Shown: piece by piece, positions 17,176 through 48,578 of the stretch
Numbering within the stretch: position 1 is the stretch's first letter
Layout: every line of letters begins with the position of its first letter
Assembly: GCA_001714685.2 (NCBI GenBank)
Contig: MDTP02000057.1
Location: forward strand, 1-48,578
DNA length: 48,578 bases
Direction of reading: 5' to 3'
Source: Methanosarcina sp. Ant1
Lineage (GTDB): Archaea > Halobacteriota > Methanosarcinia > Methanosarcinales > Methanosarcinaceae
The notes under the pieces: generated by a model
Databases searched by the model: none
Told to the model about the DNA's origin: nothing
Seen by the model: the letters and a program-made list of their open reading frames with translations, nothing else
Made by a program: the position numbers and the translations under genes

Positions 17176-17214
17176 TTATTCAATCAATTGCTGTGAGGTT
17201 GATGCTGATGTCTA
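17176..17214 (-). other. Amber codon and conserved 11-codon extension of the giant kinase
   Basis: After EKNN the TAG is followed by TSASTSQQLIE and TAA. The paralogue at 39962 ends EKNKQASAPSPQQLFE. The two align without gaps, TAG facing Gln (CAA), with S, A, Q, Q, L and E identical at matching positions. Readthrough as pyrrolysine would restore the ancestral C-terminus. Confidence 0.6.
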
Positions 17215-20200
17215 ATTATTTTTTTCTGTTACATTGAACCTTATAGTGAACTCTGTTCCCTTGTTTCTTTTCAGTTCAAGTTCACCATCTAACTGGTCTA
17301 CAAGGGAAGTTACCAGTTGAAGCCCCAGGCTATCAAGATCTTTAATGTCAACGTTTTCAGGAATGCCTATGCCGTTATCTGAAACGGTTAGGGTAAAACT
17401 CGTACTATCATAGCCTTCGTTTTTGCTTTCTTCTATGCTGTTTATACATTCTCCATTTTCTTCTCTACGGAGTTTGATTCGGATTTCTCCTTTACCCTTC
17501 CCTATAAATGCATGTTTAAAGGAATTAGAAATAAGTTCATTAACGATTATCCCTAACGGGACAGAAGTATCCATGTCAAAGAATATATTTTTTTTCAGGT
17601 CCATTCTTAGGCTGACATCTGTGTTTCCAAGCCTGTATGTAAAGAAAAGATTCTTAGCGAGTTCCTCGATGTAAGACGAAAAGTCAAGTGTATCGATCCC
17701 TCCACCTTTATAAAGTTCCTCATGGATCAGGGCCATGGATCTCACTCTGTCCTGGCTTTCCCTGAAGGCTTTCAGAACTTCTGAGTCTTTAATATCCTCT
17801 CTGTTATTGAACTTTTCAGCCTGAAGGTCAAGAAGGGACGAGATTACTTGCAAGTTGTTCTTGATTCGATGATGAATTTCCTTTTTACGGGCATTCTCAA
17901 TGTTTACTAGAGCTTCTTCTGCTTTTTTACGTTCAGTGATATCCTGAACTGTTCCTCTCATTCGAGTAGGATTATTTTTCTCATCAAAAATAACTTCTCT
18001 TTCTGATTGTACTATGCGCTCTTCTCCGTCAGGTCGAACTATTTTATAATTAGTTGCATAGATCTTTCCTTTAAAAGCTTTCTTAGTGGAGTTATACACA
18101 TAGTCTCTGTCTTCTGGACGTACGTAACTTAAAAATTTATCGTAAGTTATGCTTTCTCGAGGGTTACGTCCAAAAATACGATACATTTCATCAGACCAGT
18201 ATAATTCACCAATTACAAGATCATTATCCCAGTTTCCAATATGAGCTATTCGTTGAGCTTCAGAAAGACGTTTTTCACTTTCTTTCAATGATTTATAGGC
18301 TTCTTCAAGTTCAGATGTACGTTCTTTAACCTTTGCTTCTAAACTGTCATGTGCTTTTTTAAGGGCTTTTTCAGCTTTTTTGCTCTTTTCTATCTCGGCT
18401 TTCAGCTCATAATTGGATCGCTGAAGCTCTGCTGTTCGTTCGATGACTCGGATCTCAAGTTCGTCCCGCGCATGGCGTAACTCTTCCTCTGCATGCTTGC
18501 GTTCATTGATGTCAGTGAGCATGCTAAGAGAGCCCATGAACTTGCCATCTTTATCAAAAAGGGATTTAGCATTTATAAGTACCCATAGGGATGAGCCATC
18601 CTTGCGTATTAATTCCAATTCATAGCTCTCATTGATACCCTGCAGCCTCTTTTTCAGATTCAGTTTGAGGATAGCCTTACCTTCTTCACTGATAAAGTCC
18701 CATATCGGTCTGCCTATAATTTTTCTATGACTGTATCCGAACATCTCAACAATTTTCTTATTAATGTAAGTAATTCTGGCTTCAGCGTCCATTACGCATA
18801 TACCTTCATTTGCTGTCTCTACGATATTGCGGTACTTTTCTTCACTTTCTCGAATTTTTTCTTCTGCTCTTTTTCTTTCGGTTATATCTCTGGAAATGAA
18901 CGAGATAGCAGTCAGCTTTCCATGTATATCAAAAACCGGAGAAAGAGTTATCGAAACATCTATTATCTTCCCGTCCTTTCTTAACCGTAAAGTCTCATAA
19001 TTGTGGATCCTTTCTCCCTTTTTAATAAGTTCACTTAATTTTTTTGATTCTTTATCTAAGTGGGGCGGAGCTAGGATGGATATAGACTTACTCAAAATTT
19101 TTTTAGCTGAATGACCATAAATCCGCTCTGCCCCTTTATTCCAGCTTGTAATAATACCGTCAAGGGACATAGTTCCAATAGCATCATTTGATGATTCCAC
19201 AATATTGGCTAAGATCTGAATTTTCTCTCTCACTCTTTTACGTTCAGTAATATCCTGAACTATTCCTTTTATTCGAAAAGGGATGTTTTCCTCATCAAAG
19301 ATAACTTCGGATTGCATATGGACTGTGCGTTCTTCCCCATTAGCCAAGACAATCCTATAATCAATTGAATGGGGCTCCCTTTTTACCCCTTTCTTAAGGG
19401 CATTATTGACATAGTCTCGATAGTCGGGGTGTATATAATTTAAAAATTCATTATAAAGTGGTCCTAATTCTTGAGGATTACGTCCGAAAATACGATACAT
19501 TTCATCAGACCAGTATGTTTTCCCGCTTACAAGATCCAAATCCCAATTTCCAATATTAGCCATTTTTTGGGCTTCAGCGAGACGTCCTTCGCTTTCTTCC
19601 AGCGACTTATATGCATTCTCGAGTTTTCTTGTTCTTTCTTCAACTATGTCTTCTAAATTGTTAAGTAGTTCTTTCAACTTAGCTTCTGCTTCTTTCAGAT
19701 CTGTAATATTGCGGGAAATAGCAAGAACAGATGTCACTTTGCCATCAATGAACTCCGGTACTAGTTGTGTATTAAAATAGTATTCTTTTCCTTGAGGCGA
19801 TTTATAAAGGAATTCCATCGTTTCGGGTTTTCCTGTGGCAAAAACATTTTCATGATGTTTTTCCCAAAATTTCACCTTTTCGGGATCCATTCCCAATTCA
19901 CTATGAGTTCTACCACTGATTTCTTCTGGAGACCGACCATAAGGTTCCGCAGCGGCAGGATTAGCATATATGTGGCGATTTTGTTTATCAAAGCGGGCAA
20001 TCACGTCAGGAGAATTTTCAGCTAATGTACGAAAACGCTCTTCACTTATAATCATTTTTTCTTCAGCTTTTTTGCGTTCATTGATATCACGAGCGACATG
20101 AATACTCCCAGTGAGTTTTCCTTCCGAATCATGTAGTGGCGAAACGCTCACTATAAAATAACCACCAAGACAATCCTCGCAAACCTCCGCTGTGTGCTCA

Positions 20201-21033
20201 AACCCGTCTTTAAGCAACTGCCTATGCGGACAAAAAGAGGGAGGCTCGCTCGTCCCATGGACAACATGATAGCACGTCAACCCAACGCACTCTTCTGGTG
20301 TCAAGCTCAATCTTGCCGCCATGGCTCTGTTTGCACGAACAATCCGATAGTTAGTGTCGATTATGGCTATCAGGTCTGGCACAGCATCAAAAGTATGTTC
20401 CCAATCCTTTGTGGCTTGAAAAGCTGCTTCTTCAGCTTTCTTGCGTTTGGAGCTTTCTACGAGCTTCCATTTGCCTCCTCTTTTGATCAAAGCGAATTGA
20501 TGGTTTACGACCAGATCGATTATCTCAGCTGCGTTGTGCCTATCGAGAGAATAGGTGCACAGAGCTATCATCCGGTAGTTACCGATGACGTTGTCTGTCC
20601 GTTCCTTATATTCGATGAAACTATTCCAGTCTTCTTTTTCCAACCAGAAAGTATTCCCACTAAGCCTCACACCATCGTACCCACTTTCCGAAGCATGAAT
20701 GAGTTTTTCAATCCAGGCATTTAAGATCTTCTCCGAATCGAAAACGCCTTCCGTGATAAACCAGTCAATGTAAGAGATAATTTCGATTTGTCCTTTCTCC
20801 AGATAAAAGTCAATGTCAGAAACAGCATTTCTCAAGGCTTCTTTTACACCTTCCACTTCCAGAGGTTGTGATGTGATCCAGAGGCAAAATTCATTGTTTT
20901 CCAACCCTGCTTTGAAGTAGGGAACCAGAATGTCCGTCAAATCTTCTTTTGTTTGATAGAATTGACAGATGTGCGTACCCCATGACACATCTCCAACAAT
21001 ATCAATTCCAGAATTTCTCAGATTTTCTTTCAT
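17212..21033 (-). CDS. Giant MEDS/multi-PAS HisKA_2 sensor kinase; stop is TAG with a conserved extension
   Basis: The 1273-residue soluble kinase starts with a MEDS domain (SWGTHICQFYQTKEDLTDIL, residues ~18-190), found in methanogen/methylotroph sensors. About six PAS domains follow (roughly 205-320, 325-450, 490-600, 605-725, 730-850, 915-1040), with coiled coils between some of them. The HisKA_2 box KKEIHHRIKNNLQVISSLLD has His at 1054-1055, and the C-terminal ATPase has NELISNSFKHAF and DNGIGIP. There are no membrane helices. The first PAS has a Cys cluster (CEDC plus nearby Cys) that might hold a cofactor; this is speculative. The gene ends at TAG (17212-17214). Eleven further codons (TSASTSQQLIE) and TAA at 17176-17178 match the tail of the 1073-residue paralogue. 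No response regulator is adjacent. Confidence 0.93.
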   Translation of the reverse strand: MKENLRNSGIDIVGDVSWGTHICQFYQTKEDLTDILVPYFKAGLENNEFCLWITSQPLEVEGVKEALRNAVSDIDFYLEKGQIEIISYIDWFITEGVFDSEKILNAWIEKLIHASESGYDGVRLSGNTFWLEKEDWNSFIEYKERTDNVIGNYRMIALCTYSLDRHNAAEIIDLVVNHQFALIKRGGKWKLVESSKRKKAEEAAFQATKDWEHTFDAVPDLIAIIDTNYRIVRANRAMAARLSLTPEECVGLTCYHVVHGTSEPPSFCPHRQLLKDGFEHTAEVCEDCLGGYFIVSVSPLHDSEGKLTGSIHVARDINERKKAEEKMIISEERFRTLAENSPDVIARFDKQNRHIYANPAAAEPYGRSPEEISGRTHSELGMDPEKVKFWEKHHENVFATGKPETMEFLYKSPQGKEYYFNTQLVPEFIDGKVTSVLAISRNITDLKEAEAKLKELLNNLEDIVEERTRKLENAYKSLEESEGRLAEAQKMANIGNWDLDLVSGKTYWSDEMYRIFGRNPQELGPLYNEFLNYIHPDYRDYVNNALKKGVKREPHSIDYRIVLANGEERTVHMQSEVIFDEENIPFRIKGIVQDITERKRVREKIQILANIVESSNDAIGTMSLDGIITSWNKGAERIYGHSAKKILSKSISILAPPHLDKESKKLSELIKKGERIHNYETLRLRKDGKIIDVSITLSPVFDIHGKLTAISFISRDITERKRAEEKIRESEEKYRNIVETANEGICVMDAEARITYINKKIVEMFGYSHRKIIGRPIWDFISEEGKAILKLNLKKRLQGINESYELELIRKDGSSLWVLINAKSLFDKDGKFMGSLSMLTDINERKHAEEELRHARDELEIRVIERTAELQRSNYELKAEIEKSKKAEKALKKAHDSLEAKVKERTSELEEAYKSLKESEKRLSEAQRIAHIGNWDNDLVIGELYWSDEMYRIFGRNPRESITYDKFLSYVRPEDRDYVYNSTKKAFKGKIYATNYKIVRPDGEERIVQSEREVIFDEKNNPTRMRGTVQDITERKKAEEALVNIENARKKEIHHRIKNNLQVISSLLDLQAEKFNNREDIKDSEVLKAFRESQDRVRSMALIHEELYKGGGIDTLDFSSYIEELAKNLFFTYRLGNTDVSLRMDLKKNIFFDMDTSVPLGIIVNELISNSFKHAFIGKGKGEIRIKLRREENGECINSIEESKNEGYDSTSFTLTVSDNGIGIPENVDIKDLDSLGLQLVTSLVDQLDGELELKRNKGTEFTIRFNVTEKNN

Positions 21034-34840: not shown

Positions 34841-34879
34841 CCATAAGGCCTGGTCCAATTTTATGTAATTTAGTTCTGT

Positions 34880-35022
34880 ACTCAGTTAAGTTACTACTTA
34901 TTTAAGTCATTACTCAGTTAAGTTACTACTTACTCAAGTTACTACCTATTTAAGTTACTACTCATTTAAGTCATTACTCAGTTAAGTTACTACTTACTCA
35001 AGTTACTACCTATTTAAGTTAC
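34880..35022. repeat. TAAGTTACTACTTA-type tandem repeat with 64-bp higher-order period
   Basis: Units of about 16 bases (such as TTAAGTTACTACTTACTCAA) alternate between AAGTTACTAC and AAGTCATTAC variants. The block starting at 34917 recurs from 34981 with a period of 64 bases. It is confined to a non-coding region upstream of the MscL relic. Confidence 0.85.
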
Positions 35023-35207
35023 ATACCTTCTTTGTACGTCTTCTTTATACATCAGGGACTGACCCTATGGACCATTCGTGAATATGTAATTAATAGTATA
35101 AAAAAATGACGATAGGAATTAGTTTTTAGCAGTATTGTGATTTTTAATTCGGGGAGCACGGAGGCACAGCGAGCTCCCGAATCGCAATTAGGGTGTCAAA
35201 ACCTTTC
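35023..35207. other. Short non-coding stretch
   Basis: AT-rich DNA between the tandem repeat and a C-terminal gene fragment. A small GGGGAGCACGG / CGAGCTCCCGA inverted motif sits near 35152-35180 and may act as the fragment's terminator. Nothing else is visible. Confidence 0.35.
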
Positions 35208-35563: not shown

Positions 35564-36352
35564 TTAAACATCAACAGGAAATTCAATTTCAAGCCCTACA
35601 GGGCAGTGATCTGAGCCTGTGATTTCGCTATAAATAGGGGCAGATTTTACATTTTCTCGAAGGTTTTCACTGACGAAAAGGTAGTCCAGCCGCCAGCCGA
35701 CATTTCTGTTACGAGCGCCTGTTCTGATTGACCACCAGGAATAGTTTCCAGCTTCGCTATTGAACATGCGGAAGGTATCGATATATCCGGCAGCAAGGAA
35801 CCTGTCCATCCAGGCGCGTTCTTCGGGAAGGAAACCAGAAGCAGTCTCGTTTTGTTTGGGGCGGGCAAGGTCGATTTCTTTATGGGCAGTATTTACATCC
35901 CCGCAGATGACAAGCTTCTTGCCTTCGGATTTGAGGTCGTTTGCGTAGTCAAAAAAGGAATAGTAAAAGTCCATTTTGTAGTCCAGGCGCTCCTGAGAGG
36001 CTTTGCCGTTAGGGAAGTATATATTCATTAAGATGAAATCGTCGTAATCGACCCTGAGGAAACGGCCCTCTCTGTCAAATTTCTCGATTCCCATGCTGGT
36101 TTCAACATTAAGGGGCTTTCTCTTCGAAAAAACTCCTACTCCACTGTAGCCGTTCTGTTCTGCTGAAACGAAATAGTTATAGTAGCCTGGAATATTTTTT
36201 GCTTCCCTAGGAAGTTTCTCCTAAGAGACTTTAGTTTCCTGGATGCAGACAGTATCAAACTTTTGCTCCAGCAAAAGATCAAGAAAGCCTTTTTTGACTG
36301 CAGCCCGAAGGCCGTTTACGTTCCAGGAGACGAGGTTGTAGTGGCCAGACAT
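35564..36352 (-). CDS. Exonuclease III / AP endonuclease with an in-frame TAG at codon 44
   Basis: Read through its single TAG (36221-36223), the frame encodes 262 residues, the normal length for ExoIII. Motifs in order are [11 protein letters not shown] (10-17), CIQETKVS with the metal-binding Glu, [41 protein letters not shown] with the catalytic D-x-[21 protein letters not shown] and the terminal catalytic [11 protein letters not shown]. The enzyme cleaves abasic sites and 3' blocks in DNA repair. The TAG lies just after QETKVS in a loop where Glu or Gln would fit. The ATG at 36350-36352 is the natural start; internal initiation at 36094 would lose the first catalytic motifs. It is either an amber mutant or read as pyrrolysine. 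Confidence 0.85.
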
Positions 36353-36498
36353 TTTTATCACTTACTTATGTTTCAGAATTACAAAATTACAGTTTTTCTA
36401 TGTTGGCCTAGTCACATAGATGAATCAAATATTTCCCTGCCCGCCATTTTCTGCGAGTTCAAGTGAAGATTCGCGCTGGTAAGCTGAATCAAAATGGA

Positions 36499-36901: not shown

Positions 36902-37047
36902 CTATCTTAAAAGCAACGGAAATTACTACTAAGGGGTCTGGAGTTTGGACACACCTTGAGATAACACAGGCGCTTTTTGTACAATATTCAACGTTTTCCC
37001 CTCTTTTTTCAATTTAAAGATCTTAAATACTTCTTTTTGTCATCTTT

Positions 37048-38769
37048 TTACCCTAAAATTGAATTGTCGGACAGCCTGTTTAGGGCGGGGTGACAGCACG
37101 CAATTTGATCCATTTCTGTTACTGTGAACCTTATAGTGAATTCTGCCCCATTGTTCCTTTTCAGTTTAAGTTCCCCATCTAACTGGTCTACAAGGGAAGC
37201 TATCAGCTGAAACCCAAGAGTCTCAAGATTTTCCAAATCAAGACTTTCAGGTATACCTATCCCATCATCTGAAACTGTGAGAATGAAACTGATACTCTTA
37301 CAGCATTCGCCTTTGCCGTCTTCTATGCTGTTTATACATTCTCCGTTTTCTTCTCTACGGAGTTTGATTCTGATTTCTCCTCCGTCCCTCCCCTGAAATG
37401 CATGTTTGAGGGAGTTGGAAACGAGTTCGTTAATAATTATCCCCAACGGGACTACAGTATCCATATTAAAGGATGCATTTTCTTCCAGATCCACGTACAG
37501 ACGGATATTTTGACTACTAAGACTGTAAGTCTGGAAAAGGTTTTCAGCTAATTTTTGAAGGTATGCCGAAAAGTCCAATGTATCGGTTTCTTCCCCTTTA
37601 TAGAGTTCTTCATGGATAAGAGACATCGAGAGTACCCGGCTTTGACTTTCCCTGAAAGCCTCTCTAACATTTTCATCCTCGAACTTATCAGCCTGTAGGT
37701 CCAGAAGGGAAGAGATTACTTGCAAGTTGTTCTTGATTCTATGATGGATTTCTTTTTTTCTGGCATCTTCAGCTTTTGCCAGGGATTTTTCCGCATTGAT
37801 TCGCTCAGTAATATCTCTAGCAATAGCTGAGATAGCCACAAGCTCTCCAGATGCGTCAAAAACTGGAGAAAGAGTTACTGAAACATTTATTATTGTACCA
37901 TCCTTTTTTAACCGTGACGTTTCGTAGTGCTGGATCTTTTTTCCCTGTTTAATCTTTTCAGAAAACTGTTTCATTTCCCCTTTAAGATTATCCGGTTCAA
38001 GTATTGATATGTGTTTTCCCAGAATTTCTTCAGCTGAATAACCATGAATCTGCTCTGCTCCCTTATTCCAGCTGATAATAATATCCTCAAGAGACCTAGT
38101 TACAATAGCGTCGTCTGATGATTCCACAGCATTCAACAGTATCTGAATTTTCTCTTCTGTTTTTTTCCTCTTGGAACTTTCTATATTTTCCCATTTCCCT
38201 TTCCTTTTGATCAAAGCAAAATGGTGGTTGATAATCACGTCGATAATTTTGTTTGCGCCGCACTTGCTGAGAGGGTATGTGCACAGAGCTATCATTCGGT
38301 ATTTATCGATACTAGAATCTATTTTTTTCTCAGAATCAACAAAATCATCCCACTCCTCTGTTTTCAACCAGGAAGTATTCCCTGACAGCCTCAGCCCTTC
38401 ATAGCCACTTTCCAGGGCATGATTGAGTTTTTCAAACCAGCCATTCATGACCCTTTCAGGATTGTAAATGCCTCCATTTACACACCAGAAAATGTAGGAA
38501 ATAATTTCAATTTGCCCTTTCTCCAGGTAAAAGTCAATGTCAGAAACAGCACTTCTCAAGGCTTCTTTTGCCTCTTCTACTTCTAGGGGTTGTGACGTGA
38601 TCCAGAGACAATACTCGTTATTCTCCAACCCTGCTTTAAAGTAAGGAACCAGTATGTCTGCTAAATCCTCTTTTGTCTGGTAGAATTGGCAGAAGTGCGT
38701 TCCCCACGGCACGTCTCCGATAATATCAATACCTGAATTTCTAACGTTTTTCCTCATATGCATCTTCAC
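37048..38769 (-). CDS. MEDS/PAS HisKA_2 sensor kinase with an element-derived C-terminal tail
   Basis: The 573-residue kinase has a MEDS domain (PWGTHFCQFYQTKEDLADIL, residues ~20-195), one PAS domain (~210-325), a HisKA_2 box (KKEIHHRIKNNLQVISSLLD, His 342-343) and an ATPase domain (NELVSNSLKHAFQG, DDGIGIP). It looks like a shortened version of the giant kinase and shares long DNA identity with it in the MEDS and catalytic domains. The C-terminus differs from its paralogues: after FTIRFTVTE it reads MDQIACCHPALNRLSDNSIL-G. The same sequence, as DNA and in the same frame, occurs beside the inverted-repeat element at 48021-48075 (NQIACGHPTLNRLSDNYCQ). No response regulator is adjacent. Confidence 0.93.
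   Translation of the reverse strand: MKMHMRKNVRNSGIDIIGDVPWGTHFCQFYQTKEDLADILVPYFKAGLENNEYCLWITSQPLEVEEAKEALRSAVSDIDFYLEKGQIEIISYIFWCVNGGIYNPERVMNGWFEKLNHALESGYEGLRLSGNTSWLKTEEWDDFVDSEKKIDSSIDKYRMIALCTYPLSKCGANKIIDVIINHHFALIKRKGKWENIESSKRKKTEEKIQILLNAVESSDDAIVTRSLEDIIISWNKGAEQIHGYSAEEILGKHISILEPDNLKGEMKQFSEKIKQGKKIQHYETSRLKKDGTIINVSVTLSPVFDASGELVAISAIARDITERINAEKSLAKAEDARKKEIHHRIKNNLQVISSLLDLQADKFEDENVREAFRESQSRVLSMSLIHEELYKGEETDTLDFSAYLQKLAENLFQTYSLSSQNIRLYVDLEENASFNMDTVVPLGIIINELVSNSLKHAFQGRDGGEIRIKLRREENGECINSIEDGKGECCKSISFILTVSDDGIGIPESLDLENLETLGFQLIASLVDQLDGELKLKRNNGAEFTIRFTVTEMDQIACCHPALNRLSDNSILG
37054..37112 (-). mobile_element. Mobile-element end used as the last codons of the kinase gene
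   Basis: ACAGGCTGTCCGACAATT and the adjoining GCACGCAATTTGA-type flank match 48021-48075 at roughly nine in ten positions. Here the sequence is coding and provides the stop context of the 573-residue kinase. Confidence 0.6.
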
Positions 38770-39194: not shown

Positions 39195-39242
39195 AAAACT
39201 CGTTGCCTTAGGGTGTTATAAACACGCTTTGGAATCGATGTA

Positions 39243-39373
39243 CTAAGGAATGATGAAACTATAATTTCAAGTATTTCTGTTACCGATATTGTCTTTGATG
39301 TTTATTTGGGGAAATGGAATTATAGAGCCATTCCCAAAGTGAAAACTTGGAGTTATTTTTTAACCATTCCTAA
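39243..39373. mobile_element. 130-bp MITE, copy 2 of three
   Basis: Flanked by CTAA on both sides (CTAAGGAATG to CATTCCTAA), the same arrangement as copy 3. The interior is about 90% identical to copy 1. It is inserted right after GGAATCGATGTA, which resembles the end of the inverted repeat at 43651-43670. Confidence 0.8.
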
Positions 39374-39961: not shown

Positions 39962-42900
39962 TTACTCAAATAATTGTTGCGGGGACGGCGCTGATGCTTG
40001 TTTATTTTTTTCAGTTAAAATGAATCTCATAGTGAACTCTGTCCCATTATTCCTTTTCAGTTCAAGTTCTCCTTCTAACTGATCTACAAGGGTTATTACC
40101 AGCTGAAGCCCAAGGCTATCAAGATCTTCAATATCAAGGTTTTCAGGAATGCCTACGCCGTTATCTGATACGGTCAGGGTAAAACTGGTATTCTTACAGC
40201 CTTCCTTTTTGTATTCTCCGTTTTCTTCTCTACGGAGTTCGATTCGGATTTCTCCCTTATCTCTGCCGGGAAATGCATGTTTGAGGGAATTGGAAACGAG
40301 TTCATTGACAATTATTCCTAAAGGAACGGCATTATCCATATCAAATAATGTATTTTCTTCCAGATCCATGTTCAGGTGGATATTTTTGCTACTAAGTCTG
40401 TAAGTCTGGAAAAGGCTTTCAGCCAACTTTTTAAGGTATTCAGAGAAGTTTAGTGTATCAGTCCCTTCCTCTTCATAGAGTTCTTCGTGGATGAGAGCCA
40501 TAGATACAACCCTACTCTGACTCTCCCTGAAAGCCTCTCTAACATTTTCATCCTCAAACTTATCAGCCTGTAGATCCAGCAGGGAAGAAATTACCTGCAA
40601 ATTGTTCTTGATTCTATGATGGATTTCTTTTTTTCTGGCGGCTTCAGCTTTCGCCAGTGATTTTTCCGCCTTAATTCGCTCAGTGATATCCCTGCCAATG
40701 ATCGAGACAGCAGTTAATTTTCCAGATATGTCAAAAACCGGAGAAAAAGTTAATGAAACATTTATTGACGTACCATCCTTTTTTAACCGCGTAGTTTCGT
40801 AGTTATTAATCTTTATTCCCTGTTTAATCCTGTCAATTAACTTTTTTATTTCACCTTTAAGATTATCCGATTCGAGTATTGATGAATCTTTTCCTATAAT
40901 TTCTTCAGCTGAATAACCATAAATACTCTCTGTCTCTTTATTCCAGCTCGTAACAGTACCGTCAAGAGATGCAGTCACAATAGAATCATGTGATGATTCC
41001 ACAATATTTGCCAGCGTCTGAATATTCTCTTCAGCTCTTTTACGCTCAGTAATGTCCTGAACTATTCCTTTCACTCGAATAGGGATATTTTTCTTATCAA
41101 AAACAACTTCAGCTTGTATATGGACTGTGCGTTCTTCTCCATTAGCCAAGATAATCCTCTGATCAATGCTGTAAGGTTTTCCATTTATAGCTTTCTTAAG
41201 GGCACTATCCACATAGTCTCGATCATCATGATGCACATAACTTAAATATTCTTTGAAAGTTGGCGCTAATTCTTGCGGGTTACGTTTAAAAATACGATAT
41301 AGTTCTTCAGACCAGTATGCTTTATCAGTTGCAATATCACATTCCCAATTTCCAATATGAGCCATTTTTTGAGCTTCAGCAAGACCGCCCTCACTTTCTT
41401 TCAATGAGTTATATGCCTTCTCAAGCTGGGTTGTTCGCTCTTCAACTAGTTTTTCTAAATTTTCATGTGCTTTTTTTAGAGCTTCTTCTGCTTTCTTACG
41501 CTCAGTAATATCACGTGCAGCTGCAAAGATACCAATAACCCTACCATTCTCGTCTCTATAAACTGAAGCATTGTACAAAACAGGAATTATATGTCCTTCC
41601 TTATGCTGAATCTCTAGAGGATAATCCCGAACTTCGCCACTTGTGAATACCTGCTGATAGCCTGTACGGGCTTTCTCAGGCTCAGTGAAGTAATCTGAAA
41701 AATCAGTCCCGATCAAATCATTTCTGGAATATCCAGTAACCTGTTCTGTAGCGCCATTTACATCCGTAATTTTGCCGTCAGGCCCGATGGTTACTAGAGG
41801 ATCCAGACTAGCTTCAATAAGGCTACGATTATAAATATTTGACAACCTAATAGCTTCTTCTACTTTTTTGCGCTTAGTGATATCTATGAATGCAGAAACA
41901 GCCCCGCGTGGATTGCCCTGCTCGTCACGCAGGGGTCTGGCGTTACCCAATACGTGTCGTATATTGCCGTCAGCAGATATGATGTCTAGCTCGCAGTTGT
42001 TTACCTCTATGCCTGCAACCGACATCTGCGACGGCATATCGGTAGCGGGCATCTCCACTCCGTCCTTGAATAACCTGAACATCTCGGGTCTCTCTCCTTC
42101 GGGAGCGGACTTGGAAAAGTTTGTACCCACAGGAATCCGTTGCCATTCGTAGGAGAGACGGTTACCAGTTATTTGAAGCGCTTGGGGATCGTGCGCTATA
42201 TACACGGCGACAGGCACGGCATCCAATACTGCTGCCAGTTCTTCCGAGCGAGCTCTCTCACGTTTCTCGCTCTCCCGCAGCGCGTTAACCAGGGTATCGC
42301 GTTCCGCCAGCGACTGGGCCAGCTTGATATTACTATAGCTTAGCTGCGAGGTCATGTTGGCAAACGTCATAAAGAAAGACATGCCTGTGTCAACAGCTTC
42401 CTTGCTCAACCGTGGAACTTTTTCAAGCGCTGCTATGTATTCCTCCTCATTGAAACCGTATTTTCTAGCCTGGGATCGGAAAAGCTCACAGTCCAGAGGC
42501 TCGTCTTCAAAAAAGAACTGCCCTGCGAAGATATCGCCGACATGCTGGTCACCCACAATTATGGGAGTCACTATGTCCCACATGTTGTTCTTACACTTGT
42601 ATAGCTTAAACTCTCCAGGGGAAACGCCTGCAGATAGCTTTATGTTGCTTTCTACGCAGTGCTTGCAGGTTTCGGGATGAACCCTATGGAATTTGGTACA
42701 GATATCCTGCCATCCAACGCCTACCAGAACATTGCCTTTGAGATCGTTTAGGCCAATGGGAATGTGAACAAGCTTATAAAAATCATCCATGAGGGACTGG
42801 ATCGCCTGGGTATCAATGATGTCGGCAAGCTCCAGGTTAGCCATTTCCCGAACTTCACTTTCCTGAAGGTTAGCCTCAAACTCTTTCTGGTAGCTTAAGT

Positions 42901-43183
42901 CGAATCCAGAAATACACACACATTTTTCTTCGGTTAAGGGGTGAAACACAATTAAGTATACTCTTTTTCCCGCTTTAACTTCCATTTTTTCCGGACTATT
43001 CCGGGAAAGTACTCTTTGCACAAAATCTCCGATACTCGAAGGCAGTTTTTCTCCGACTCCCACACCCCACTCATGCAGTAAGGGCTCACCCGCTTTATTT
43101 GAGTAAAGAACCGTCCCATCCTTTTCCACACGGAGTACAGGATTAGGGTTTGTTGCCGGAAATTGCTCCATCTTTGTTTTCAT
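39962..43183 (-). CDS. PocR/multi-PAS HisKA_2 sensor kinase
   Basis: The 1073-residue soluble kinase starts with a PAS-like region (1-120), then a PocR domain (~128-300) containing FHRVHPETCKHCVESN, VTPIIVGDQHVGDIFAGQFF and the typical C-terminal helix. PocR domains bind small hydrocarbon-type ligands and are coupled to kinases in methanogens. About four PAS domains follow (~325-445, 450-565, 610-725, 730-845), one preceded by a coiled coil. The HisKA_2 box has His 855-856 and the ATPase domain has NELVSNSLKHAFPG and DNGVGIP. The tail EKNKQASAPSPQQLFE is the intact version of the sequence beyond TAG in the giant kinase. It is orphan, with no adjacent regulator. TTATCCTC-rich sequence precedes the ATG. 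Confidence 0.93.
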   Translation of the reverse strand: MKTKMEQFPATNPNPVLRVEKDGTVLYSNKAGEPLLHEWGVGVGEKLPSSIGDFVQRVLSRNSPEKMEVKAGKRVYLIVFHPLTEEKCVCISGFDLSYQKEFEANLQESEVREMANLELADIIDTQAIQSLMDDFYKLVHIPIGLNDLKGNVLVGVGWQDICTKFHRVHPETCKHCVESNIKLSAGVSPGEFKLYKCKNNMWDIVTPIIVGDQHVGDIFAGQFFFEDEPLDCELFRSQARKYGFNEEEYIAALEKVPRLSKEAVDTGMSFFMTFANMTSQLSYSNIKLAQSLAERDTLVNALRESEKRERARSEELAAVLDAVPVAVYIAHDPQALQITGNRLSYEWQRIPVGTNFSKSAPEGERPEMFRLFKDGVEMPATDMPSQMSVAGIEVNNCELDIISADGNIRHVLGNARPLRDEQGNPRGAVSAFIDITKRKKVEEAIRLSNIYNRSLIEASLDPLVTIGPDGKITDVNGATEQVTGYSRNDLIGTDFSDYFTEPEKARTGYQQVFTSGEVRDYPLEIQHKEGHIIPVLYNASVYRDENGRVIGIFAAARDITERKKAEEALKKAHENLEKLVEERTTQLEKAYNSLKESEGGLAEAQKMAHIGNWECDIATDKAYWSEELYRIFKRNPQELAPTFKEYLSYVHHDDRDYVDSALKKAINGKPYSIDQRIILANGEERTVHIQAEVVFDKKNIPIRVKGIVQDITERKRAEENIQTLANIVESSHDSIVTASLDGTVTSWNKETESIYGYSAEEIIGKDSSILESDNLKGEIKKLIDRIKQGIKINNYETTRLKKDGTSINVSLTFSPVFDISGKLTAVSIIGRDITERIKAEKSLAKAEAARKKEIHHRIKNNLQVISSLLDLQADKFEDENVREAFRESQSRVVSMALIHEELYEEEGTDTLNFSEYLKKLAESLFQTYRLSSKNIHLNMDLEENTLFDMDNAVPLGIIVNELVSNSLKHAFPGRDKGEIRIELRREENGEYKKEGCKNTSFTLTVSDNGVGIPENLDIEDLDSLGLQLVITLVDQLEGELELKRNNGTEFTMRFILTEKNKQASAPSPQQLFE

Positions 43184-47022: not shown

Positions 47023-47910
47023 ATGCTAAAGAGACAGCTAGGAACCCTATTCCTGGTAACATGCCTTATTTTAACAACCGTACCTGCTGTATTAGGCGGA
47101 CCGAGTACAAAAGTGATAAATGTTGCCGGAGATGGAAGCGGAGACTTCAATTGTGATGGAAAAGATGATCACATCCAGATTAACCAAGCTCTTGAATCTG
47201 CAGCAAATAATCCAGGCACAACTGTCCACCTTAAAGGCCCATTCACATACGACATAGGCGATTCTCTTCGGATAGGCAGCAACACAATCCTTGAAGGAGA
47301 GTCCGGTGCTACAATTAAACTTGCCAAAGGATTACCCGTATGGGGTGGACGCGGAAGTAGTATTTCAGCAGAGAAAGCTATGCTTATGATTAGAGGCAGT
47401 TCTGCAACCGACGTTACAATAAGAAACTTAAATGTTGATGGTAGTCAGAGGGATTATTATCCCCATATTACCCTCGGTTGGTCTAGTTATAACATGGCAA
47501 CTTTAATAGGTTGCAATGGGTTAACAATTCAGAATGTTACATTCAAGAATGGATGTAACGATGCCATGCTTATGTCAAAGTGTAGCAATGTAATGATAGA
47601 TACAGTAACTGTAAACAAATGTGGACACGATGGTGTATACGCCTATAATGTAAATGGCATTACAGTTAAGAATAGTAAATTTATTAACCGGACTAATTCA
47701 TCTTGCAGGTTCTATACTGTTACCGATGGAGTGTTTGCAAATAATGATTGTACCACATCTGGCGGTGGATATGCAGGCTTAGAATTGGAAGGAACTGTTA
47801 AAAACATAGAAGTTTATGGCAACAATTTCCATGGATTGGCTGGCCCTGCAATAGCACATGTAAATACAAAAGAAACTAATGTAAACATTCACGACAATAA
47901 AATGAGTTAA
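47023..47910 (+). CDS. Secreted right-handed beta-helix surface protein (disaggregatase-like N-terminal domain)
   Basis: The 295-residue protein has a signal peptide (MLKRQLGTLFLVTCLILTTV, then PAVLGG). The following region is characteristic of Methanosarcina surface proteins of the disaggregatase type (VINVAGDGSGDFNCDGKDDH, IQINQALESAA, NTILEGESGATIKLAK). Repeated strand motifs (VTIRNLNVDGS, LTIQNVTFKNG, VMIDTVTVNKC, ITVKNSKFINR) form a parallel beta-helix of pectate-lyase type. Known relatives continue into a larger C-terminal catalytic region, absent here, so it may be a free beta-helix domain or a truncated gene. The ATG follows AAAGGTGATACG. Upstream and downstream lie partial copies of the same promoter and signal-peptide segment. 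Confidence 0.85.
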   Translation: MLKRQLGTLFLVTCLILTTVPAVLGGPSTKVINVAGDGSGDFNCDGKDDHIQINQALESAANNPGTTVHLKGPFTYDIGDSLRIGSNTILEGESGATIKLAKGLPVWGGRGSSISAEKAMLMIRGSSATDVTIRNLNVDGSQRDYYPHITLGWSSYNMATLIGCNGLTIQNVTFKNGCNDAMLMSKCSNVMIDTVTVNKCGHDGVYAYNVNGITVKNSKFINRTNSSCRFYTVTDGVFANNDCTTSGGGYAGLELEGTVKNIEVYGNNFHGLAGPAIAHVNTKETNVNIHDNKMS

Positions 47911-48020
47911 AATCCCTATAAAGATCCAACCCAAAGCCGATACAACGCCAAAAAGGAAGCTAGGAACCCTATTCCTGGCAACACCCCTTATTTTAACTAC
48001 CGTATCGGCTTTGGGAAAAA
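47911..48020 (+). pseudogene. Decayed copy 4 of the surface-protein 5' segment
   Basis: Starting directly after the stop codon, the sequence AATCCCTATAAAGATCCAAC is again the surface-gene leader. It is followed by a signal-peptide-like stretch in which ATG has become ACG (ACGCCAAAAAGGAAGCTAGG). It ends at the start of the mobile-element end at 48021. Confidence 0.75.
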
Positions 48021-48049
48021 TCAAATTGCGTGCGGCCACCCCACTCTAA

Positions 48050-48169
48050 ACAGGCTATCCGACAATTACTGCCAGTAATAAAAAGACAACAAAAAGAAGT
48101 CATTTAAGGCCTTAAAATCGGAAAAGAAGGAATTCTTTTATTACTGGCAGTAATTGTCAGACAGCCTGT
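48050..48169. mobile_element. 120-bp element with 34-bp inverted ends
   Basis: The left arm 48050-48083 (ACAGGCTATCCGACAATTAC...) and right arm 48136-48169 (...TAATTGTCAGACAGCCTGT) are reverse complements with two mismatches. The loop of ~52 bases is non-coding. The flank 48021-48049 plus part of the left arm recurs at the 3' end of the 573-residue kinase. Confidence 0.8.
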
Positions 48170-48233
48170 AAAGGTCAGGGTATTCGTGACCCTCTGCGCT
48201 CCCATAGTAATAAAATTAATTCAAGTGTTTCCC

Positions 48234-48578
48234 ATGTTCAAAATGTACGATCAAAAGCAGCAATTTTTACTTCCATTGAATCTGGAAGAGTTTGTTTCTG
48301 AGGACCATATTTCCAGAGTACTAAGGAATGACAAGAATATAATTTCAAGTATTTCAGTTACAGATATTGTCTTTGATGATTATTTGGGAAAATGGAATTA
48401 TAGAGCTATCCCAAAGTGAAAACTTGAAGTTATTTTCGAGCTATTCCTAAACGATTTCATAGATGTCGTTGACATTAGTACTATCGAATCTACTTACCCT
48501 TAGAATGGTTGCCCTGCCTATCATCCAAGACTTTTTCTAAAGATCTTATTTTATGGGTACCTGATAAATATCAGAAGT
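48234..48578 (+). pseudogene. IS1182-like transposase 5' end, interrupted by a MITE and carrying a TAG
   Basis: MFKMYDQKQQFLLPLNLEEF then VSEDHISRVL is the conserved N-terminus of transposases of the IS1182 group. The frame is broken at 48321 by a 130-bp MITE. If the MITE and one CTAA are removed the frame continues exactly as NDFIDVVDISTIESTYP-TAG-NGCPAYHPRLFLKILFYGYL, the expected next section. The in-frame TAG (48501-48503) lies where relatives often have an acidic residue or Gln. The gene runs out of the window. It is inactive here because of the insertion. Confidence 0.8.
48321..48450. mobile_element. 130-bp MITE, copy 3, inside the transposase gene
   Basis: Flanked by CTAA on both sides; the pre-insertion sequence AGAGTACTAAACGATTTC can be reconstructed and restores the transposase frame. 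The interior matches copies 1 and 2. This is the clearest evidence for insertion with duplication of a short target (CTAA or TAA). Confidence 0.85.

Follow-up and report, generated by a model that had tools for sequence, protein, structure and literature searches.

A MITE-like element probably supplied the C-terminal tail of a sensor histidine kinase in Methanosarcina sp. Ant1

The stretch of Methanosarcina sp. Ant1 DNA analyzed here (contig MDTP02000057.1, 48,578 nucleotides; hereafter, the window) contains genes for three paralogous sensor histidine kinases, designated K1, K2, and K3, as well as a complete copy of a short repeated element near 48 kb. The features that bear on the 3′ end of K1 are listed below, with the evidence for each in brackets.

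37048–38769, minus strand: sensor histidine kinase K1, 573 aa, with MEDS, PAS, HisKA_2, and HATPase_c domains (open reading frame, translation, Pfam)
37048–37109, minus strand: element-derived 3′ end of the K1 reading frame, consisting of the QIACCHPALNRLSDNSILG codons and the stop (base match, left boundary of the element, break in the alignment to K2)
37005–37109, minus strand: left half (~105 nt) of a MITE-like element, its right half unrecognizable (similarity to two other copies)
39962–43183, minus strand: paralogue K2, 1073 aa, native tail TEKNKQASAPSPQQLFE kept (3′-end comparison, alignment to K1)
17212–21033, minus strand: paralogue K3, 1273 aa, native-like tail past an in-frame TAG (Pfam, tail match)
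48020–48214, plus strand: complete element copy of ~195 bp, with left tip B, palindromic core, and right tip A (inverted arms)
48234–48416, plus strand: short, degenerate reading frame next to the element, with weak similarity to the start of an IS1182 transposase (NF033551)

Pfam placed the MEDS domain of K1 at residues 24–182, HisKA_2 at 340–415, and HATPase_c at 441–549. The translated reading frame ends in RFTVTEMDQIACCHPALNRLSDNSILG (also given as TVTEMDQIACCHPALNRLSDNSILG) directly before the stop codon. A preliminary description of this DNA had proposed that the last ~19 codons of K1 match, in frame, a sequence near 48 kb next to an inverted-repeat element, and the alignment bore this out: positions 37062–37109 on the minus strand are an inverted copy of 48020–48067 on the plus strand, with 43 of 48 bases identical. 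Because shuffled 48-mers reached at most 28 of 48 identical bases anywhere in the window (mean 25.7; 200 shuffles), a chance match is excluded. The similarity extends 3′ of the K1 stop codon to approximately position 37005, and thus the match is at the DNA level and not of the peptide alone; the segment 37005–37109 (~105 nt) is 80% identical to the 48-kb copy and 92% identical to a copy on another contig of the same genome (C26). K1 has GG before ATC, where most element copies have AA. Farther downstream, positions 36940–36999 were reached by no other match in the genome (E ≤ 0.001), and neither the right half of the element nor the native tail is recognizable there. The element’s right end is missing at K1, and a complete insertion is therefore not seen at this site.

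When the 3′ ends of K1 and K2 were aligned, they corresponded base for base through ACAGAA, a four-base block (ATGG in K1, AAAA in K2), and AT, after which they diverged; at the joint, no base was gained or lost in K1 relative to K2. This alignment suggests that the first base of the element was set directly after a native A-run, giving the frame TEKN-QIAC, and that three substitutions followed. In close paralogues, the native continuation is TEKNNQASAPxxQQL. The preliminary description ascribed a different, mutually similar tail to both paralogues, which is accurate for K2, whose product ends in TEKNKQASAPSPQQLFE before the stop; the K3 product, however, stops at TEKNN, and its similar tail (TSASTSQQLIE) lies behind the in-frame TAG (17179–17256, minus strand). 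A comparison of kinase 3′ ends comprised 49 rows, of which two were K1 itself and eight were repeats, and the K1 tail was absent from all 39 other distinct ends. Conservation of the tail in orthologues lacking element DNA, which would speak against an insertion, was looked for and not found. A scan of genome contigs with the kinase confirmed no relative, and no listed match in the genus outside Ant1’s own genome spans the whole kinase. The search thus yielded no insertion-free orthologue of K1, and the uninterrupted state was judged from the paralogues.

The element itself belongs to a dispersed family. In the complete 48-kb copy, arms at 48050–48083 and 48136–48169 are inverted and 94% complementary. 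The usual unit measures ~195 bp in all and consists of left tip B (ATCAAATTGCGTGCGGCCACCCC), an inner repeat (AGGCTGTCCGACAATT), a core, the inverted inner repeat, and right tip A, which ends in GTAATAAA. With the 48-kb copy as query, we identified 45 matches in its own genome (both arms counted), and a 64-nt query from the element end had matches in 25 of 30 genus genomes, Ant1 included, with at most 33 matches per genome. From 80 fetched stretches and 12 own-genome loci we assembled 92 element-end matches, 89 of them distinct. Across these 89 copies the left end is sharp: after a flanking AA, the element opens with ATCAAATTGCG, and columns are nearly invariant rightward from its first A. The near-invariant part begins at ATCAAATT, and K1 joins the element at that point. 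To the left of the boundary only the AA stands out (80/89 and 84/89), with no consensus farther left. Right tip A was recognized in 35 of the 89 copies; where the outer tips differ (B versus A), as they often do, the inverted repeat is confined to the inner part. No convincing target-site duplication was found in the 35 two-ended copies over 462 combinations of offset and length.

An empty-site search used the left flanks of three copies (L139, L142, and L203) against the 30 genomes, and eight loci matching L203 were inspected. One site in another genome (L256, genome G009) lacks the element but retains the sequence that flanks it on the left in L203 and L253. This confirms the left boundary alone, since there is no match on the right of that site. 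The L139 flank had six matches besides itself among the 30 genomes, none extending beyond query position 445 of 500, and the L142 flank matched only itself. The family is short, multi-copy, and dispersed, with defined ends and no transposase gene, as expected of miniature elements of the MITE type, although the K1 copy itself is a half copy. A reading of the element as an RNA family was rejected, as Rfam at gathering thresholds found only a tRNA in the window. Among the inspected loci L134–L213, outer tips of several types occur (B, A, and others such as GGGGTATGCTTCGGGCCGCCCGCCCGG), and a common inner repeat is combined with varied tips and either with different cores or with a transposase gene; in L200 the core is almost absent. 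These combinations look like a modular exchange of ends.

The spread of the family also bears on the direction of transfer. That the tail is native to K1 and was captured from there by the elements is scarcely credible: nothing beyond the similarity itself speaks for it, whereas the segment occurs in those 25 genomes with a fixed end of its own and also forms the terminal repeat of an insertion sequence (described next), and the tail is absent from the other kinases compared.

That insertion sequence is a complete element of 1787 bp (1.79 kb) at L192:1210–2996, with the B end at both sides. Its transposase gene is split into two reading frames, which matched the NCBIfam IS1182 model NF033551 at model positions 3–175 (E = 6.2e-45) and 250–486 (E = 2.7e-69). 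The halves scored 154 and 234.3 bits, each below the 270-bit cut-off for a whole protein because each is only part of the split gene. The small elements thus have termini in common with a full-length insertion sequence, as MITEs do, and may have been mobilized by an insertion sequence of the L192 type. Since the B end bounds an insertion sequence with an IS1182-type transposase, the K1 tail is an IS1182-type terminal repeat translated in frame. Like the IS-mobilized MITEs of other prokaryotes, the K1-type element is ~195 bp long, has many copies, and has a terminal sequence in common with a full insertion sequence; in contrast to them, its two outer tips are often unlike (B at the left, and A at the right in 35/89). 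The likeness to the IS1182 family lies in L192, which has this end on either side and contains the transposase halves, whereas the K1 copy has no transposase. The short frame beside the 48-kb copy (48234–48416) matched NF033551 with E = 0.032, below the cut-off, and had no Pfam match. The 98 nt of 48318–48415 recur at 39240–39337 with 89% identity, and degenerate remnants at 39240–39373 (between K1 and K2) and 48318–48450 (beside the complete element) are related (89% and 88%), the latter overlapping the weakly IS1182-like frame.

Together with the DNA match, the boundary and the K2 alignment support the earlier proposal that the end of a mobile element provides the C-terminal tail and stop codon of K1 and that the native tail is gone. 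The arrangement is very probably explained by an old, partly deleted, and probably neutral insertion of a MITE-like element bearing an IS1182-type terminal repeat near the 3′ end of K1. A nonautonomous element would have entered an A-rich stretch near the end of the gene, where the native sequence read something like ACA GAA AAA AAT (TEKN). Because the left end of the element faces the gene, translation would run into it, through the terminal repeat and four core codons to a TAA inside the element, and a native tail of ~15 residues (NKQASAPSPQQLFE-like) would have been exchanged for QIACCHPALNRLSDNSILG. Deletion or decay would later have removed the element’s right half, along with whatever was left of the native tail; the half-copy state suggests that the event was old.

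An alternative is that ectopic recombination brought the element DNA to K1, or that a deletion fused K1 with a downstream half-element. Consistent with this, no more than the left half of the element can be recognized, the native tail does not follow K1, and no convincing target-site duplication was found in the 35 two-ended copies. We consider it unlikely, however, because the joint sits at the element’s left terminus, which a random deletion would seldom hit, with zero bases gained or lost relative to K2, and because it lies in an A-rich site like those of other copies. Transposition is thus our preferred account of how the joint arose.

Fusion to host genes does not appear to be a general property of the element. 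The preliminary description held that the element end is open when read outward and that insertions can therefore fuse cleanly to host genes. The 48-nt end is in fact open in only one of three frames outward and in two of three frames from host into element, and this openness is ordinary, given that 12,824 of 20,000 (64%) same-composition shuffles had at least two open inward frames. Reading frames of ≥80 aa that stop inside the element were found at 9 of 89 copies, compared to 113 of 1099 random control positions (same loci, 20 draws), so there was no enrichment among the 89 copies. The other eight fused frames include three with significant Pfam matches, namely to an IS110 transposase (L199), a DUF1699 protein (L190), and a CHAT fragment (L151), all of them broken or cut short; L161 and L202 had only weak matches below the cut-off, and L160, L174, and L196 had none. 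A search of the 30 genomes for the tail peptide, which had been suggested as a check, recovered K1 itself (573 aa) as the sole reading frame >150 aa among the matches listed, the next being 141 aa. With no enrichment, ordinary openness, and one long reading frame among the listed matches, the claim of clean fusion is unsupported.

The exchange of tails probably had no effect on K1, neither harmful nor beneficial. The native tail of the kinase family is interrupted by an in-frame stop in 9 of 38 matches (from 15 of the 30 genomes; K3 included), and because paralogue tails are so often cut by nonsense codons, this region is dispensable and under weak constraint. The HATPase_c domain ends at residue 549, before the K1 tail. 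AlphaFold2 predicted the last strand at residues 542–551 and assigned pLDDT <50 to residues 554–573, in a model of low overall quality (mean pLDDT 51.1). Between K1 and K2, the kinase regions have a dN/dS of 0.18, a value that points to past constraint on the kinase domain but says nothing of selection on K1 after the insertion. Neutrality is thus the probable outcome, given that the tail sits beyond the catalytic domain, in a part of the protein that paralogues readily dispense with.

It is quite improbable that the element-derived tail QIACCHPALNRLSDN was instead taken into use, serving K1 as a docking or stability peptide under selection. In favor of such use, its frame is uninterrupted and retains 76% similarity to the frame of the element itself, and K1 keeps its kinase domains; if the tail were a working one, the end of a mobile element would represent a ready-made protein tail kept by natural selection. 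Against this, K1 is alone among the listed matches in being a long reading frame, native tails of the family are themselves stop-interrupted, and the low-confidence model has no structure there.

In-frame fusion of MITEs with genes has been described before, above all for the Rickettsia palindromic elements (RPEs), short palindromic mobile repeats that enter genes and are read in frame as protein (PMC10969869). As RPEs are described in that source, the K1 element resembles them in being short, palindromic, mobile, and read in frame. RPEs are reported in many genes, however, whereas the K1-type tail occurs in one long reading frame among the matches listed, with no enrichment over random positions, and the K1 element makes the C-terminus; recurrent in-frame insertion with function kept, as in RPEs, was not seen among its copies, the other recognizable cases being broken. 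Within the literature covered, from which subscription papers were mostly missing, we recognized no paper describing the element repeat, and we do not claim that it is absent from print.

K1 is therefore a new archaeal example of a known phenomenon, and a clear, base-resolved one, in which an insertion element would have rewritten a C-terminus without breaking the protein. It also illustrates that the tail can change freely in this large family of kinases, and it outlines across the genus a dispersed repeat family whose end matches an IS1182-type element. For annotators, the K1 tail should not be taken for a kinase motif.

Elsewhere in the window, a gene of the exonuclease/endonuclease family (35564–36361, minus strand) has one in-frame stop and is apparently broken, and 16-bp direct repeats (TACTCAGTTAAGTTAC-like) form an array at positions 34847–35038. 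Between 46655 and 48010, a 120-nt repeat occurs four times, with one copy at the start of a beta-helix reading frame (47023–47910), as if the signal-peptide region of that frame had been repeatedly copied.
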